Part shown: one piece after another, positions 1,459 through 7,382 of the stretch
Numbering within the stretch: position 1 is the stretch's first letter
Layout: every line of letters starts with the position of its first letter
Assembly: GCA_029287455.1 (NCBI GenBank)
Contig: JARFRB010000033.1
Coordinates: 1 to 64,000, forward strand
Source of the DNA: Pelagibius litoralis
GTDB taxonomy: Bacteria > Pseudomonadota > Alphaproteobacteria > Kiloniellales > DSM-21159
Direction of reading: 5' to 3'
DNA: 64,000 nucleotides
The notes under the pieces: model-generated
What the model was told of the DNA's origin: nothing
Database searches by the model: none
The model's input: the letters and a program-made list of their open reading frames with translations, nothing else
Position numbers and translations under genes: made by a program

Positions 1459-1646
1459 GCGAAGGCATCCAGACAGCGGCCCTGGGACTTGGCTTCGGCC
1501 AAAGCCTCGGCCGACAGCAGCCAGCAATCCTCCACCTTCTTGTCGGCGGGGCGTTGAACACATCCCGAGAGCACGGGCAAAGCCAGCGCGAGGAAGAGGA
1601 ACGCCATCCGCCCTGGCGCCCTCGAAACGAAATCCAGCCACGTCAT
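1356..1646 (-). CDS. Small predicted lipoprotein coupled to the ankyrin ATPase gene
   Basis: A 96-residue protein whose signal peptide ends in a lipobox, PVLSGC, with acylated Cys at about residue 29. The mature part is only ~68 residues, contains two more Cys (VEDCWLL and GRCLDAF), and matches no family I recognise. The ATG overlaps the stop of the upstream AAA-ankyrin gene as ATGA, indicating translational coupling and one operon. The 3' end runs about 100 bases antisense into the aldolase gene. The last ~30 residues are therefore composition-poor, and the true protein could in principle end earlier if a frame error exists. The lipobox and the coupling are the main support for calling it real. 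Confidence 0.6.
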   Translation of the reverse strand: MTWLDFVSRAPGRMAFLFLALALPVLSGCVQRPADKKVEDCWLLSAEALAEAKSQGRCLDAFAYESGLKRAASSLAFRNSRPVSLPTATKRKPLSA

Positions 1647-3589
1647 CTAATGCTTTCGGCCCCCTGAAGCATTCTGATCGTATCGGCGGTTCCCCGGCGC
1701 TCCGCGAAATCCACAGCCGACATCCCTTGCGAATTGCGCAAGTTCGGGTCGGCGCCGGCCGCCAGCAGCCGCGCCACCACCTTTCTGTGCCCGACGGCCG
1801 CCGCATACATCAGCGCCGTCGTGTTTTGCAGACCCAAGGCATCGACCGCTACGCCAGCGTCCAGCAAACGTTCCACGATCGCCAATTCGCCGCGCATGAC
1901 AGCCGCCATCAAAGCCGTGCGCCCATCCCGATTGCCCAGATGCGGATCGGCACCTGCGGCAAGCAAGACCTCGACGCTGGCCTCGTCGCCGTTCCAGGCG
2001 GCATACATCAAGGCCGTGGTTTGCTGATCGTTCCATTGGTCCGGATTCGCGCCTTGCCCCAACAGCCGACGCACTTCCTCGGACTGCGCAGCCTTGGCCG
2101 CTCTGATCAAGGGTGTGGACCCTTGGGCATCGCGGCGCGTTAGGGCTGCGTGCTGGGCGCGGCCGAACTCGGCGGGGCGCTTCAACCCAGGCCGGGGCGC
2201 GACTGAGGGGCGATCGGGCGCGGTCGCCCTATCCACTGACGGCTCGGGCCGGGTGGACCGCTCCACAACGGAGTTAGGAACCTCATCATTCCGGGAGTAG
2301 CCCGGCGAGATCGTGGAGCGCTCCGCCTCGAATCCGCTGGACTTCAGCCCCGGATGCACCTCAGACACTTCCACGGTCGGCAGTGGCGCCAAATCCTCCC
2401 CAATGGGTCCGCTCGTGGTGGCGCGAACACCCTCTTGCGTCTCCGATTCCGGCAGCGCGGCACCACGGCGATCTTCCCGTGCATCCGAGACCAGGGCGAA
2501 CCAAGCCGTGGCGGCGGCCACCACAATCCCACCCGTCCAACCCGCGAGACGGCGAAACCTCAGCCGCGGCGCCTCAGGGGCTTTCGACATGGCGAAACCC
2601 GCCGCGGCGGCCGGCCTTTTCGCGCCGCTTGACAGGGTTCGGAGTGCCTCGCGGTCGGGGCCATCGACCGCGATCGCCTTCGCCATGGTGTCGAGCCGCT
2701 TTGACACGGCTCGGCCTTTCTGGCGCTCTGCACGCAGCGGCTCCGGCCGCGATTCAGGAAGCGCAGGCCCGTCGGCCGAAGGCTCTTCCGGCGGCGGCAC
2801 TTTAACCAGAAGGTCGGACCAAGCTTCGCCGTGAACGCGTGCCACCCGCCGGTCGACGCTTCCCAAGCGATCGAAGGCCGCGATCACGTCGGTCAGCTTC
2901 ACGAGATTGCTGGATCTCGAACGCGCCTGCCCGCACGCCGCCTTCGCCAAGCAAACTAGTCGCCCGGGCGCGCCCTCGGCGCGCCTCAGGATTTCGGCCC
3001 GCGCGTTTGAGGAGACGGTGAAAGGGTCTTGCCCGTCCCCGGAATGAAAAACCCGGTCGAGCAGGCTTCCCGCCTCTTCCTCACCCAGCGGGTAGAGCCG
3101 GTAGGCGGTTTGACACTCGCTGGGGATCTTGCCGGATGCCCGCTTGAAGCGCTCTTCCGCGTCGAGGGAGCCCGCGAGAACGAGGTGTCCATCGCGGGCC
3201 AGGATCGCGGTCTCGATCAAGTCGACAAGGATCGCGAGGTCACCGTCAGCCAGCCGGTCCGCGTCATCGATCAGTAACACCGCGCCGCCGCGGCGAGCGC
3301 GAGCGACCAAGCGCTCCAGAAGCGATTTGTCCAGCGCGGGAGCCGAAACGTAAAGGGGCTCCACGGCTCCGCCGCCATGACCCAGAACAGCCGCCAAGCG
3401 CTTAAGCGCGGCGGTTTTCCCCATGCCGCATGCACCCAGAACGAAGCTCACCCCGCCGCCGCCAGGCGGCGCGCTTTCATCGCCCCGCTCCCGAACGATT
3501 GAGGCGACGAAACGATCGAGCCACTCGGGATCTTTCCAAAGGGGGCTCTCCTGCCCCAGCCGCGTCCCGGCGCTTCCCATCCTTGGCAT
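1643..3589 (-). CDS. AAA ATPase - transmembrane - ankyrin-repeat protein
   Basis: About 648 residues. Residues ~15-265 form an ExeA/TniB-like AAA ATPase with Walker A GACGMGKTA (52-60) and Walker B AVLLIDDADRL (103-113). A low-complexity charged linker follows, then one transmembrane segment (about 350-367, GWTGGIVVAAATAWFALV) preceded by basic residues, which predicts a cytoplasmic ATPase and a periplasmic C-terminus. After a Pro/Ser/Thr-rich stalk come five ankyrin repeats (~490-648, for example TALMYAAWNGDEASVEVLLAAGADP). ExeA/GspA proteins of type II secretion share the ATPase-TM plan but carry a peptidoglycan-binding domain outside; here ankyrins take that place. The start at 3589 is chosen because translation from the more upstream codon gives an unlikely leader; its ribosome-binding site is weak. 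The gene is coupled to the lipoprotein gene downstream. Function unknown. Confidence 0.8.
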   Translation of the reverse strand: MPRMGSAGTRLGQESPLWKDPEWLDRFVASIVRERGDESAPPGGGGVSFVLGACGMGKTAALKRLAAVLGHGGGAVEPLYVSAPALDKSLLERLVARARRGGAVLLIDDADRLADGDLAILVDLIETAILARDGHLVLAGSLDAEERFKRASGKIPSECQTAYRLYPLGEEEAGSLLDRVFHSGDGQDPFTVSSNARAEILRRAEGAPGRLVCLAKAACGQARSRSSNLVKLTDVIAAFDRLGSVDRRVARVHGEAWSDLLVKVPPPEEPSADGPALPESRPEPLRAERQKGRAVSKRLDTMAKAIAVDGPDREALRTLSSGAKRPAAAAGFAMSKAPEAPRLRFRRLAGWTGGIVVAAATAWFALVSDAREDRRGAALPESETQEGVRATTSGPIGEDLAPLPTVEVSEVHPGLKSSGFEAERSTISPGYSRNDEVPNSVVERSTRPEPSVDRATAPDRPSVAPRPGLKRPAEFGRAQHAALTRRDAQGSTPLIRAAKAAQSEEVRRLLGQGANPDQWNDQQTTALMYAAWNGDEASVEVLLAAGADPHLGNRDGRTALMAAVMRGELAIVERLLDAGVAVDALGLQNTTALMYAAAVGHRKVVARLLAAGADPNLRNSQGMSAVDFAERRGTADTIRMLQGAESIR

Positions 3590-3765
3590 GCGTGTTTCCC
3601 GCTGATTCTTTCCGCGCACGGAATTATGACCAAGGCACAAAACGCCGTCAGGCGGACAAGGCGAGGTAACTCGCCTGAAAAGCAAGGCGCGTTCGGCATA
3701 AGCCGAGGAACCACGCTCAAACAGTGCGAAGCAGCCGGGGAGGCCCCGGTCGATGAAGCGGCGAG

Positions 3766-4350
3766 CTAGTGCAGGGCCTCGGAAACGGGCGCGATTGCGT
3801 GGCGGACCCGCTCTACGGCAACCTCGCCATGAAGCTGTTCGACGAGCCAGAGGCCCATATCCACCGCGGCAGCCGCCCCAGTGCAGCTCAGCAAGCGGTC
3901 ATCGCAAAGGAAGCGCACACCCTCCACCACCTCGGCACCTCCCAAGACCCGCAAGCTGGCCACCTGTGCCGGGTGGGTGGTGATGCAATGCCCCGCCGCC
4001 AAGCCCGCTGCCACCAAGGGAAAAGCGCCGCAGCCGACGGTGGCCAGAGTGCGGCAGCCAGGGCCGCAGGCCGCCAGCCAGGCGAGTATTCGCGGATCCT
4101 CCGCCGCCCGAAGCGCCCCGGATCCGCCGGGGATGAGAAGGATATCCGGTTGCGCCAGTTCATCGAGCGTACGGTCGGAGAGGATGCGTAGGCCGCTTTC
4201 ACAGCTGACCTCGCCGCCATCCAGAGACACCGTGAGGATCCGTAAGGCCTCACCCTCGCCCGGCCGGGCCGCGGCCAACACTTGTATGGGGCCGACGATA
4301 TCCATTTCCGCCGCGTCTTCGAACACCAAAACGGCGACGGTGAGGGTCAT
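3766..4350 (-). CDS. DJ-1/PfpI-family protein (class I glutamine amidotransferase-like)
   Basis: A 194-residue single-domain alpha/beta protein of the DJ-1/PfpI superfamily, close to the amidotransferase-like half of GlxA-type regulators but with no DNA-binding domain. Visible motifs are VAVLVFEDAAEMDIVGP at the N-terminus, DILLIPGGSG, and the nucleophile elbow TVGCGAFPLVAAG with Cys at about residue 107 (most relatives have CTGAF here). The Cys suggests hydrolase, chaperone or glyoxalase-like chemistry, but the exact activity cannot be told. The ATG at 4350 follows a GGGGGAG site. It stands alone between the ankyrin ATPase and the L,D-transpeptidase, all on the minus strand. Confidence 0.82.
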   Translation of the reverse strand: MTLTVAVLVFEDAAEMDIVGPIQVLAAARPGEGEALRILTVSLDGGEVSCESGLRILSDRTLDELAQPDILLIPGGSGALRAAEDPRILAWLAACGPGCRTLATVGCGAFPLVAAGLAAGHCITTHPAQVASLRVLGGAEVVEGVRFLCDDRLLSCTGAAAAVDMGLWLVEQLHGEVAVERVRHAIAPVSEALH

Positions 4351-4488
4351 CGCGCTCCCCCATGTCTCACAAGCCAAACTCGCTTAGTATCACCACGGCG
4401 TGCAGAGTGAGACAACGGCGAAATTCGCAAAGCCCCCTTGCGACCGCGCCGCGAGGGCGCGGTGGGGGCCCGGGGTTGGGTCCGGCCC

Positions 4489-5064
4489 CTAGGGCAAGAT
4501 GACGATGGTCGTACCATCGTCCACCATGCGCCAGATCTCCTCGATCTCCGCATTGGTGACCGCGATGCACCCCTCGGTCCAGTCCCGCTGGGGATGCTCC
4601 ACGTAGCGGGCGCTAAACCCATTAGGAAGGCCATGGATCATGATCAGTTCGCCGGGGGAATGACCGGCCTCCCGGGCGCGGGCGATATCGCTGACAGCCG
4701 GATAAGAGATATGCAAGGAGAGATGGAAATCGCTATCCGGGTTGCGCCAATCGATGATGTACTGGCCCTCCGGCGTGCGCCCGTCACCTTGGCGCTGCTT
4801 CGGACCATCCGGATTGCGCCCCAGGGCCACCCGGTAATGACGAAGCAACTCCTGCCCGTGCCAAAGCTCCAGCCGGCGCTCCCCCTTTCGAATCAAAACC
4901 AGATCAGCTTTATTAAGACTACTGTTATATGATAGCCGTGGGGTATCCGCATGAACGCCAGAGGGCTGCGCGATCAGCGCCATACCAAGACATGCTGCTA
5001 GCGCCGCGCCGCCCAAAGGGAAGATCGCGAGAAACCTTCGAAAACACCGCAACATTTGCCCCAC
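4489..5064 (-). CDS. L,D-transpeptidase family protein (YkuD/YafK-like)
   Basis: A 191-residue exported protein: an N-terminal hydrophobic segment (about residues 11-33), then a YkuD catalytic domain. The active-site signature is HGLPNG (His 144) followed by DWTEGCIAVTN (Cys 166); Thr-Glu replaces the more usual Ser-x before Gly-Cys, as in YafK/DpaA-like members. The domain order fits a periplasmic enzyme that makes, or in some members hydrolyses, bonds to meso-diaminopimelate in peptidoglycan stems. It is divergent from a second, differently built L,D-transpeptidase at 5159, and an Lpp-like lipoprotein gene lies 1.1 kb away. Whether it is a transpeptidase or a DpaA-like amidase cannot be settled from the sequence. 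Confidence 0.85.
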   Translation of the reverse strand: MGQMLRCFRRFLAIFPLGGAALAACLGMALIAQPSGVHADTPRLSYNSSLNKADLVLIRKGERRLELWHGQELLRHYRVALGRNPDGPKQRQGDGRTPEGQYIIDWRNPDSDFHLSLHISYPAVSDIARAREAGHSPGELIMIHGLPNGFSARYVEHPQRDWTEGCIAVTNAEIEEIWRMVDDGTTIVILP

Positions 5065-5158
5065 CCAAAAAGGTCACACAGAAACTTCGACTCGCACGCA
5101 AAGTATAGCATCAATGAATTAGCAAATGTCTAATCATCGTTTAGAAGGCTACTTGGGA

Positions 5159-6037
5159 ATGTCACGGGCTCTTGCTTCGATTTTGGCGGCGCTTCTTTTA
5201 CAGGCGGCACCCGCCCATGCGGGGGCGATCGGCGAAATGGGCAGCTATTCCGCCGCGCATGAAGACACGCTGATGGATATCTCTCGGCGGTTCAACCTGG
5301 GTTTCGTGGAACTGCGTGCAGCCAATCCGGAGGTCGACGTGTGGCTGCCGGGCGATGGCACGGAGGTTCTGCTTCCCAGTTGGCACCTTCTGCCCAATGC
5401 CCCCCACGAAGGGATCGTTATCAATCTTTCGGAGATGCGGCTCTATCATTTTCCGAAGAACGGCGGACCCGTGGAAACCTTCCCGATCGGCATTGGCCGC
5501 GACGGGCGCCTCACGCCGGTCGGATCGACAACGGTGGTGCGCAAACTTAGCGACCCGACCTGGTACCCACCCGAATCGATCAGGAAAGAGAAGCCCGAGT
5601 TGCCGAGCGTTGTTCCGCCCGGCCCCGAGAACCCTCTTGGCCGCCACGCCCTTTATCTCGGCTGGCAAAGCTACTTGATCCACGGGACCAACCAGCCTGA
5701 CGGCGTGGGGCGCAGAATCAGCGCGGGCTGTATCCGTATGTACCCCGAGGATATCGAGCGCCTGTTCGCCACGGTAGACCCGAGCACGCCGGTCACCGTG
5801 GTCGATCAGCCGGTCAAGCTCGCGTGGATTGACGGGGAACTCTACATGGAGGTTCACCCCAATCAGGAGCAGGCCGATCAGATCGAGATGGACGGCGCGT
5901 TCGACCTCAAGTTGCCAAAGAACGTCATAGGGCAAGTCATTGAGGTTGCTGGGGAAGATTCCAAACGCCTGAACTGGCGCGCGATCGAGAATGCCGCGGT
6001 CGAGCGCAGAGGATATCCCCTACGCATCACGCGCTGA
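5159..6037 (+). CDS. L,D-transpeptidase with LysM-like domain (ErfK/YbiS type)
   Basis: About 292 residues with an Ala-rich signal peptide ending near AHA-GA. A LysM-like peptidoglycan-binding region (roughly 30-75, EDTLMDISRRFNLGFVELRAANP) precedes a YkuD domain with YLIHGTNQ (His 175) and RRISAGCIRMYPEDI (Cys 191), the classic HGT...SxGCIRM signature. This is the architecture of E. coli LdtA/B/C, which attach Lpp to peptidoglycan. The ATG at 5159 puts the signal peptide right at the N-terminus; an upstream ATG at 5126 has no ribosome-binding site and adds a charged leader. The gene is divergent from the other L,D-transpeptidase and convergent with the Lpp-like lipoprotein gene. Confidence 0.92.
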   Translation: MSRALASILAALLLQAAPAHAGAIGEMGSYSAAHEDTLMDISRRFNLGFVELRAANPEVDVWLPGDGTEVLLPSWHLLPNAPHEGIVINLSEMRLYHFPKNGGPVETFPIGIGRDGRLTPVGSTTVVRKLSDPTWYPPESIRKEKPELPSVVPPGPENPLGRHALYLGWQSYLIHGTNQPDGVGRRISAGCIRMYPEDIERLFATVDPSTPVTVVDQPVKLAWIDGELYMEVHPNQEQADQIEMDGAFDLKLPKNVIGQVIEVAGEDSKRLNWRAIENAAVERRGYPLRITR

Positions 6038-6118
6038 GGACGCGATAAACCCGGTGGGCCGTCCCGGGCACTCCAACCCGAACGGGCCAAGCTGAATTGG
6101 CCAAGCCGAACGGGGTGA

Positions 6119-6136
6119 CCGGCCTAGCCTGGCCGG
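6119..6136. terminator. Stem-loop between convergent ldt and lpp-like genes
   Basis: CCGGCC - TAGCCT - GGCCGG forms a 6-bp GC stem with a 6-base loop. It lies in the 139-base gap where the transpeptidase gene (plus) and the lipoprotein gene (minus) end facing each other. There is no T-run, so it is at best a weak terminator. Confidence 0.35.
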
Positions 6137-6176
6137 CACCCGCTGGAGCAATCGGAAACCCCGTGCTCGGGATAAG

Positions 6177-6452
6177 CTACTTGCGAATGCTGCGCTGGTA
6201 GGCCCGCTCGGCCTCTTCGGCAGAGGTGTTCGCGCTGTTGGCGGCCGTTTCGGCGCGCGTGGCGGCGTTTTCAGCCCGTGTCGCGGCCGTGTTGGCGCGG
6301 GTCGCCGCGTCTTCCGCCCGGTTGGCGGCGTCGCGGGTTTGTTCGAGAAGCGCGCGATCATCCTCGTTTAGGGTGCTGCTGCAAGCCGAAAGCCCAGCGG
6401 TCGAAACCGCGATGACCGCGACGGCCGCGAGCTTAGTAAATTTCGATGCCAT
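6177..6452 (-). CDS. Alanine-zipper outer-membrane lipoprotein, Lpp/OprI-like
   Basis: A 91-residue precursor with a lipobox at AGLSAC (Cys 24). The mature 68-residue chain is almost all heptads of Ala-rich helix (DAANRAEDAATRANTAATR and onward), the alanine-zipper pattern of Pseudomonas OprI and related to E. coli Lpp. It ends in SIRK. A C-terminal Arg-Lys is the feature by which Lpp and OprI are joined to the diaminopimelate of peptidoglycan by ErfK-type L,D-transpeptidases, and such an enzyme is encoded directly across the intergenic gap. Likely role: outer-membrane to peptidoglycan tether. Cross-linking in this organism is inferred. Confidence 0.85.
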   Translation of the reverse strand: MASKFTKLAAVAVIAVSTAGLSACSSTLNEDDRALLEQTRDAANRAEDAATRANTAATRAENAATRAETAANSANTSAEEAERAYQRSIRK

Positions 6453-6677
6453 TAAAATTCCCCTTTCTTTTCAGCTTGTGGGCACCGGCCCACGAGGTCG
6501 GCCCATGAAGTTGGCCCGGAGACGGCGAAACGGCGCGCTCCTGTGGTCGTGTACACCCGTGAACGATAAAGGTTCCCGAACAATCGAAAATTCTCCCCCT
6601 TCGCGCCTTCCCGCGCCGGAACTTTGTGCTATTCAGGGCGGCAACAACGACGATGAGTGGATGATGGAGGCTCGGCA

Positions 6678-7382
6678 ATGCCCCAGCTTGTTTTGCTGCG
6701 ACACGGTCAAAGCACCTGGAATATGGAAAATCGTTTCACCGGATGGACCGATGTCGATCTGAGCGACAAAGGCCGGGCGGAAGCGATGGAAGCCGCGCGG
6801 CTGATGCAGGCAAATGGGATCATTCCCGACGTCTGTTTCACCAGCGTGCTTAAGCGCGCCATCCGTACTCTGTGGATTGCCTTGGACGAGCTAGACCGCA
6901 TGTGGCTGCCGGTGACGCGCTCTTGGCGCCTTAACGAACGCCACTACGGCGCCTTGCAAGGTCTGAACAAAGCCGAGATGGCCGCCAAGGTGGGCGAGGA
7001 GCAGGTACATATCTGGCGCCGCAGCTACGACGTGCCCCCGCCCCCCCTGGAAAGCGACGACGCCCGCAGCGCGGCGCAGGATCCGCGCTATGCGGCCTTG
7101 GCGCCCGATCAAATTCCAGCCACGGAAAGCCTGAAAGATACCGTCGCGCGCGTTCTGCCGTACTGGCACGAGGCGATTAAGCCAGAATTGCTCGCCGGCC
7201 GAACCGTCTTGATCGTCGCGCACGGCAATAGCCTGCGGGGCTTAATGAAGTATCTGGAAGATATCTCGGACACGGAAATTCCGGGTGTCGAAATTCCCAC
7301 TGGCCTGCCCCTCTCCTACACCTTGAACGGCGATCTAGAGGTTGTCAGCAGGCGCTATCTGAACGAAAGCGCATCCGTGTAG
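6678..7382 (+). CDS. gpmA: 2,3-bisphosphoglycerate-dependent phosphoglycerate mutase
   Basis: A 234-residue cofactor-dependent phosphoglycerate mutase that interconverts 3- and 2-phosphoglycerate in the cytosol (glycolysis and gluconeogenesis). The phospho-histidine motif [10 protein letters not shown] (His 9), the substrate motif [13 protein letters not shown], the [13 protein letters not shown] block and the second catalytic His in VAHGNSLRG are all present. The ATG at 6678 follows a GGAGG site; an upstream in-frame ATG at 6657 would swallow it. Length and motifs are typical of the dPGM family rather than the broad phosphatase clan. It is convergent with the aspartate dehydrogenase gene, 15 bases away. 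Confidence 0.95.

Follow-up and report, generated by a model that had tools for sequence, protein, structure and literature searches.

A candidate OprI/Lpp-type lipoprotein tether beside an L,D-transpeptidase and a YafK-like enzyme in Pelagibius litoralis

Three genes at the locus

The window analyzed in the present study is a stretch of 64,000 nucleotides from Pelagibius litoralis (contig JARFRB010000033.1, positions 1 to 64,000 of the forward strand), in which three open reading frames (ORFs) at positions 4489-6452 encode a YafK-like YkuD-domain protein, an L,D-transpeptidase, and an alanine-zipper lipoprotein (Table 1). A reading of this DNA from its letters alone (the sequence-only reading) had placed a lipoprotein of this type ending in Arg-Lys beside an ErfK/YbiS-type L,D-transpeptidase, with a second, YafK-like enzyme divergent from the latter; the ORFs, a match to Pfam PF11839, and the catalytic motif confirmed the pair, and the ORF positions confirmed the second enzyme. 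The gap between the two divergent enzyme genes is 61-70 bp depending on the start chosen for the YafK-like gene, which, as read by eye, probably begins with the ATG at 5055 and not with the GTG at 5064, and the lipoprotein gene converges on the transpeptidase gene across a gap of 139 bp. The cluster is flanked by genes for a DJ-1/PfpI-family protein and phosphoglycerate mutase, and a scan of 4300-6800 for promoters and terminators detected no signal exceeding that of shuffles.

Table 1. Positions of the cluster genes and motifs in the window, together with related lipoproteins of other loci
Feature	Position	Strand	Remark
YafK/DpaA-like YkuD-domain protein, candidate release enzyme	4489..5064	-	Signal sequence and catalytic domain
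Catalytic motif T-E-G-C-I-A, Ala at Cys+2 replacing the transpeptidase Arg	4561..4578	-	Alignment
ErfK/YbiS/YcfS/YnhG-type L,D-transpeptidase, candidate attachment enzyme	5126..6037	+	N-terminal signal sequence
Catalytic motif S-A-G-C-I-R (SXGChR type)	5720..5737	+	Alignment
91-aa alanine-zipper lipoprotein, candidate outer-membrane tether	6177..6452	-	Ala-rich repeat, PF11839
Lipobox LSAC (residues 21-24), putative lipidated Cys24	6381..6392	-	Read from the sequence
C-terminal Arg-Lys (protein ends SIRK), Lys91 the proposed acceptor	6180..6185	-	Read from the sequence
Zipper lipoprotein of Azospirillum brasilense	L288:2603-2866 and L290:1103-1366		Ends SRSQRKTRS, three residues past the expected Lys
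Short lipoproteins	L093, L097, L098, L103, L107, L112, L114, L119, L124
Short lipoproteins, continued	L127, L130, L137, L139, L145, L147, L152, L155

The transpeptidase (303 amino acids (aa); Pfam YkuD 93.9 bits) carries a motif of the SXGChR type, with S199, G201, C202, and R204 invariant in 18/18 aligned rows. It scored below the cut-offs of PRK10190 (181 vs. 517) and PRK10260 (171 vs. 583) and, judged by such scores, is a relative, not a member, of the LdtE/PRK10190/PRK10260 equivalogs; the closest match to its predicted structure (mean predicted local distance difference test score (pLDDT) of 88) was the Klebsiella L,D-transpeptidase 4lzh, with a template modeling score (TM-score) of 0.80 on the query. 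The lipoprotein exceeded the cut-off of PF11839 (Alanine_zipper; 28.6 vs. 23.1 bits), and a relative from Sneathiella passed that of NCBIfam NF040598 (Lpp/OprI; 43.9 bits, cut-off 43). The Cys and the terminal Lys of this protein were each invariant in two alignments (16/16 and 36/36 rows), and among the 36 tether relatives PF11839 matched 34, with PF04728 (Lpp) matching one at an expectation value (E) of <=0.01. In five related lipoprotein gene pairs, from which the window's own was excluded, the ratio of nonsynonymous to synonymous substitution rates was 0.03-0.12, the fifth pair giving 0.0 because synonymous changes were saturated; a chance or mis-called ORF was ruled out by this selection in relatives and by the conserved neighborhood.

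Conservation of the pair and of the terminal Lys

Among 57 relatives at the order level, 17 had a strong match to the transpeptidase (the raw tally of 20/58 includes the window's genome and two weak matches), and in 13 of these 17 a zipper lipoprotein was encoded within ~0.8 kb of it. In the remaining cases, the lipoprotein was separated from the transpeptidase by ~10 kb within one contig (G010), was located on another contig (G018), or was not found near the transpeptidase (G033 and G025). All 15 order-level lipoproteins end in Lys, four of the 13 adjacent ones (G012, G050, G045, and G039) having been found via a filter that required this residue.

A search that left the last residue free, supplemented by a profile from which the last three residues were omitted, was applied to the best 80 of 573 confirmed transpeptidase relatives in the GTDB set, at least two of which repeat order-level genomes; since the sequences of these loci are related, the counts do not represent independent events. 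A zipper lipoprotein was present within 0.8 kb in 42 loci, 33 being recognized as Ala-rich small lipoproteins and nine more by the profile, and 17 loci had a short non-zipper type, leaving 21 with no candidate; an antisense ORF in L132 was dropped before counting and a weak match in L093 (E 0.043) was moved to the short type. According to their titles, the 42 zipper loci comprise 32 alphaproteobacterial, seven gammaproteobacterial, two deltaproteobacterial, and one ungrouped locus, and one of the seven, a gill symbiont, is a gammaproteobacterium by our assumption. Every one of the 42 lipoproteins ends in Lys (31 in Arg-Lys) versus 37 of 568 long ORFs from the same 80 loci, a control in which at least one end is itself that of a lipoprotein (one scored 27.7 on the position matrix described below), as the lipoprotein's own frame extends upstream in L135 and L144 and qualifies as a long ORF. 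The zipper lipoproteins of three gammaproteobacterial loci (L156, L160, and L169) have two Cys just before the C-terminal end, e.g. AERCDRMMGKAMAK, and these might form disulfides.

At the class level, an even draw of 289 alphaproteobacterial genomes yielded the transpeptidase in 38 (E<=1e-40) and a match to the lipoprotein profile A4 in 29 (E<=1e-4); the lipoproteins underlying A4 had themselves been found with this transpeptidase, and a few genomes of the class set contributed to it. Comparison of coordinates by hand placed the A4 match of 24 of the 29 genomes, counting that of the window, no more than 1 kb from the transpeptidase, and these 24 pairs span 15 family labels. PF11839 matched 30 of the 289 genomes, 22 over the cut-off, and 11 of the 30 matches are in frames longer than 300 aa and, therefore, are not small lipoproteins. 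Lys was the last residue in 24 of the 25 intact small lipoproteins read, including a non-adjacent one (G136); the other, a weak second match in G087 (L287, E 2e-5), ends in KAD in a genome without this transpeptidase. This reading excluded G116, G225, the first match in G087, and G131, which are not small lipoproteins, and G192, in which the match beside the transpeptidase (L279; G192:C11:37865-38128) is interrupted by a TAG stop and may be a pseudogene or reflect a sequencing error. The pair is thus conserved across part of the Alphaproteobacteria, in many families, and the tether-transpeptidase system is, as far as these sequence matches indicate, present in a minority of the class.

Regarding the 17 short lipoproteins, which have mature lengths of 35-61 aa and are encoded convergently downstream of the transpeptidase, all end in Lys and most share an APYA..ERT block. 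Fifteen were found without a Lys filter and two (L112 and L152) with one; 14 of the 29 ORFs listed in this search, none of them Lys-ended, were dropped as unrelated or antisense as judged by eye, and a Pfam scan of two of the short lipoproteins gave no match. We refer to them as the Micavibrio type, five of the 17 titles containing Micavibrio or MICAV, and no short lipoprotein was seen at some other Micavibrio-titled loci among the 80. On a position matrix built from the C-terminal ends of the zipper lipoproteins with the last residue excluded, the 16 distinct Micavibrio-type ends had a mean score of 2.7 vs. -17.6 for the 568 control ends, and shuffling of these ends gave a mean of -15.7 (standard deviation 1.5, 2000 shuffles, best -10.7). 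Their individual scores ranged between -9.0 and 10.5, the lowest of which was reached by 58 of the 568 controls and the median by two.

The C-terminal register of the short type, A-E-R/P-V-F-x3-Q-x-K, thus resembles that of the zipper type, A-D-R-I-F-x3-L-R-K. The two lipoproteins otherwise differ and accompany the same enzyme, and a common register around the final Lys is what an acceptor site of this enzyme would predict. It suggests an acceptor signal for these transpeptidases, which is open to testing; a short type that arose by truncation of a zipper would account for it as well.

In a collection of plasmids, 77 of the 138 records with a transpeptidase relative were from Klebsiella, those listed being 41-42% identical, and some of the listed records are as large as chromosomes and may have been filed wrongly. 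Elsewhere in the window, positions 1643-3685 (- strand) encode a 680-aa protein with an ATPase-like region (STAND/AAA matches below the cut-off) and C-terminal ankyrin repeats.

The YafK-like enzyme and a possible release step

A YafK-like gene was present at 15 of the 80 best loci and accompanied by the lipoprotein in 14, six of which are titled Geminicoccaceae. The gene order in these 14 was yafK-lipoprotein-ldt in 10, lipoprotein-yafK-ldt in three, and ldt facing lipoprotein plus yafK in one, and the arrangement in the window represents a fourth; at L128, the two enzyme genes diverge as in the window and the lipoprotein was not found. Two of the 17 order-level relatives (G028 and G039) also had the YafK-like gene close to the pair. 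The trio was, therefore, rejected as an invariant unit: the family to which the window belongs conserves the pair only, and in G010 even the pair is separated. Concerning conservation of the three-gene neighborhood, on which the sequence-only reading proposed to check its module, the pair proved to be conserved in many families and the trio was present at 14 of the 80 best loci.

The YafK-like protein (191 aa; Pfam YkuD 75.4 bits, cut-off 23.4) has a YkuD domain without Arg at Cys+2, as is the case for DpaA/YafK, and T163, G165, C166, and A168 were invariant in 26/26 aligned rows. DpaA/YafK (NF040599) was its sole NCBIfam match, at 48.8 bits under a cut-off of 365, and was likewise the only one in all 26 relatives, each with Ala at Cys+2. 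The sole sequence match in the PDB (E<=0.01) was 8ikr, DpaA. Ala or Asn occupies this position in most DpaA-like proteins, and L,D-carboxypeptidases also lack the Arg, as described in PMC8263019.

The fold is less discriminating. In a Foldseek search with the model of the YafK-like protein, which is of moderate confidence (mean pLDDT 74), Bd1075 ranked 1-2, Pgp2 3-5, Bacillus subtilis YkuD 6-7, DpaA 8ikr 8, and Csd6 11, and 8ikr had the highest identity (31%) among the matches; a model of this quality is at least as near to L,D-carboxypeptidases as to DpaA and does not separate the groups. Since neither the fold nor the missing Arg distinguishes the two, we regard release of the lipoprotein by this protein, as the sequence-only reading had proposed, as only slightly favored: the Ala, the DpaA-only match, and the 14 loci make it plausible, and the fold is at least as near to carboxypeptidases. 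A rather less probable alternative is that the pair anchors the outer membrane and the YafK-like protein acts on stem peptides, which it would trim as an L,D-carboxypeptidase of the Csd6/Pgp2/Bd1075 type. The Foldseek ranking and the Arg-less motif shared by both groups (an excerpt of PMC8263019) are consistent with trimming, whereas the exclusive DpaA/YafK match in the 26 relatives, the PDB match to 8ikr with its top identity, and recurrence of the gene beside that of the tether point to release.

Anchoring of the outer membrane and known systems

Turning to the gammaproteobacterial side, 99 of 397 genomes of the phylum matched NF040598 at E<=1e-5. The 1.5-kb flanks of the 30 best loci contained a match to the transpeptidase in 20, a YafK-like gene in 10, both in five, and neither in five. 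In eight OprI-like loci (L247-L250, L254, L255, L257, and L258), which we take to be Pseudomonas from the OprI sequence, the transpeptidase is convergent as in the window, and no YafK-like gene was detected in the 1.5-kb flanks. This assignment is helped by L248, the lipoprotein of which matches PDB 9tz4, 'Major outer membrane lipoprotein', and the transpeptidase of which is 84% identical to PDB 9tyw and 41% identical to that of the window. Presumably, oprI and the gene of the anchoring enzyme LdtPae2 also adjoin in Pseudomonas aeruginosa itself. In PMC10434034, LdtPae2 (PA14_27180) of this species is reported to anchor OprI and, in Escherichia coli, Lpp, with deletion data for LdtPae2 and OprI, and a release role is assigned to LdtPae3 from its sequence and the absence of another activity.

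Considering these relatives, we propose that the three genes encode an anchoring system of the OprI/Lpp type for the outer membrane, including probable release by the YafK-like protein, with a probability of approximately 0.75. The lipoprotein would be lipidated at Cys24 and form an alanine-zipper rod located in the outer membrane; the transpeptidase would take a tetrapeptide stem of peptidoglycan, form an acyl-enzyme via Cys202, and transfer meso-diaminopimelic acid (meso-DAP) onto the side-chain amine of Lys91; and the YafK-like protein, without the transpeptidase Arg, would probably hydrolyze the meso-DAP-Lys bond. Linkage by the adjacent transpeptidase appears to be highly probable. The self-contained attach/detach module of the sequence-only reading holds in its attach half, which is strongly supported because of the adjacency in many families, the retained Lys, the convergent pair in OprI-bearing genomes resembling Pseudomonas, and the P. 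aeruginosa deletions; its three parts are together only sometimes.

Several findings weigh against the anchoring system as proposed. Four genomes of the same family that have the lipoprotein carry the YafK-like gene on other contigs, and, therefore, a self-contained trio is true only sometimes. The lipoprotein is under the curated cut-off of NF040598 (31.9 vs. 43 bits) and is, thus, not filed under that family, and the best NCBIfam match of the transpeptidase is LdtE, a 3-3 cross-linker (207 vs. a cut-off of 480). In addition to the 21 best loci with no candidate lipoprotein nearby, 14 of the 38 transpeptidase-bearing genomes of the class set have no profile match beside the enzyme, and 251 of the 289 have no match to the transpeptidase at E<=1e-40.

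A further point against the reading is provided by A. brasilense, in two records of which the zipper lipoprotein beside the transpeptidase ends in RKTRS, not Lys; two further records match the first at 100% over residues 1-85, and one record already annotates the gene as 'alanine-zipper protein' beside an L,D-transpeptidase. This leaves three explanations for the protein, namely, attachment through an internal Lys, trimming of its end, or no linkage at all. Terminal Lys was rejected as a universal feature because of this protein. The sequence-only reading had named homologs without a terminal Lys as evidence against a tether, and this one species supplies them, the Lys being kept almost everywhere else.

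The match to LdtE leads to another explanation, namely, that the transpeptidase is mainly a 3-3 cross-linker and the lipoprotein an unlinked zipper, the neighborhood reflecting a shared envelope role. The lineage of LdtPae2 is described in part of PMC10434034 as holding anchoring and cross-linking enzymes, which is in keeping with this. We consider it unlikely in view of the near-invariant terminal Lys, the same register in an otherwise different lipoprotein beside the same enzyme, and the presence of a separate YcbB-like enzyme in the source genome. Of the four YkuD matches in that genome, two are the cluster enzymes, the third is this 564-aa protein with scaffold and peptidoglycan-binding domains (309 bits vs. 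a cut-off of 425), and the fourth (194 aa) has no NCBIfam match at E<=0.01; the YcbB-like enzyme would be available for 3-3 cross-linking, which we count in favor of the anchoring role, and a single alanine-zipper lipoprotein of the genome exceeded the Pfam cut-off. A last alternative, in which the enzyme links outer-membrane beta-barrel N-termini as in Brucella and the lipoprotein is incidental, draws on the linkage reported for the class (PMC10787603 and PMC12729407) and is very improbable here, as it leaves the conserved adjacency and the conserved C-terminal Lys unexplained.

The OprI-type system is already known, and a candidate for it is found here in a class said to mostly lack Lpp homologs. 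A survey of Lpp as PF04728, in the portion of PMC8263019 concerned, confined it to a subset of Gammaproteobacteria, and left open the substrate of DpaA-like proteins in the many bacteria without Lpp. Passages of PMC10470522 state that Lpp homologs are absent from most Alphaproteobacteria and that Rhodobacter sphaeroides peptidoglycan contains Tri-Lys-Arg (4.3% according to the table of that paper, 4.2% according to its text) with no source protein assigned, and a passage of PMC10787603 describes Brucella and related Rhizobiales as being without lpp. A paper describing the alphaproteobacterial transpeptidase-lipoprotein pair was not found in the open-licence library searched, in which nothing relevant was found on PA2853/PA2854, Rhodospirillales Lpp, or Micavibrio tethers either. 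A genuine Lpp-type tether had been anticipated to be notable in this class; the candidate is supported, and is not peculiar to this genome, being found in many alphaproteobacterial families.

The tether encoded in the window is a real and probably functional one of the OprI type, accompanied by the enzyme that would attach it and perhaps by one that releases it. A candidate lipoprotein tether that lies beside a candidate release enzyme in some loci bears on the DpaA-like proteins of bacteria without Lpp, and an Arg-Lys-ended lipoprotein of this sort would be an obvious candidate source for the Tri-Lys-Arg of R. sphaeroides. We tentatively suggest, at somewhat less than even odds, that many Alphaproteobacteria outside the rhizobial group generally anchor the outer membrane by Lys-tipped lipoproteins, the length of which can evolve freely: the Micavibrio-type short lipoprotein would replace the zipper rod and keep only the recognition end for the same transpeptidase, and a dedicated release enzyme would be clustered with them in several lineages.

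In comparison with known systems, the cluster resembles OprI/LdtPae2/LdtPae3 of P. aeruginosa in its Arg-Lys-ended zipper lipoprotein, its transpeptidase of the ErfK/YbiS lineage, and its YafK-related enzyme (part of PMC10434034), and Pseudomonas-like genomes in the convergent transpeptidase gene next to that of the lipoprotein. It differs in that the sequences have diverged, the lipoprotein of the window falling below the NF040598 cut-off, and in the presence of a YafK-like gene inside the cluster. As with E. coli Lpp, LdtA/B/C, and DpaA (YafK), described in part of PMC8263019, a C-terminal Lys is proposed to be joined to meso-DAP and the link to be undone by a YkuD protein without Arg, whereas nearly all of the tether relatives match PF11839 and just one of them PF04728. 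The contrast with beta-barrel linkage in Alphaproteobacteria, which the sequence-only reading drew, agrees with the relevant sections of PMC10787603 and PMC12729407: in Brucella and Agrobacterium, an outer-membrane link is likewise made by L,D-transpeptidases, but it is the N-termini of barrels that are linked there, and the candidate in the window is the C-terminus of a lipoprotein.

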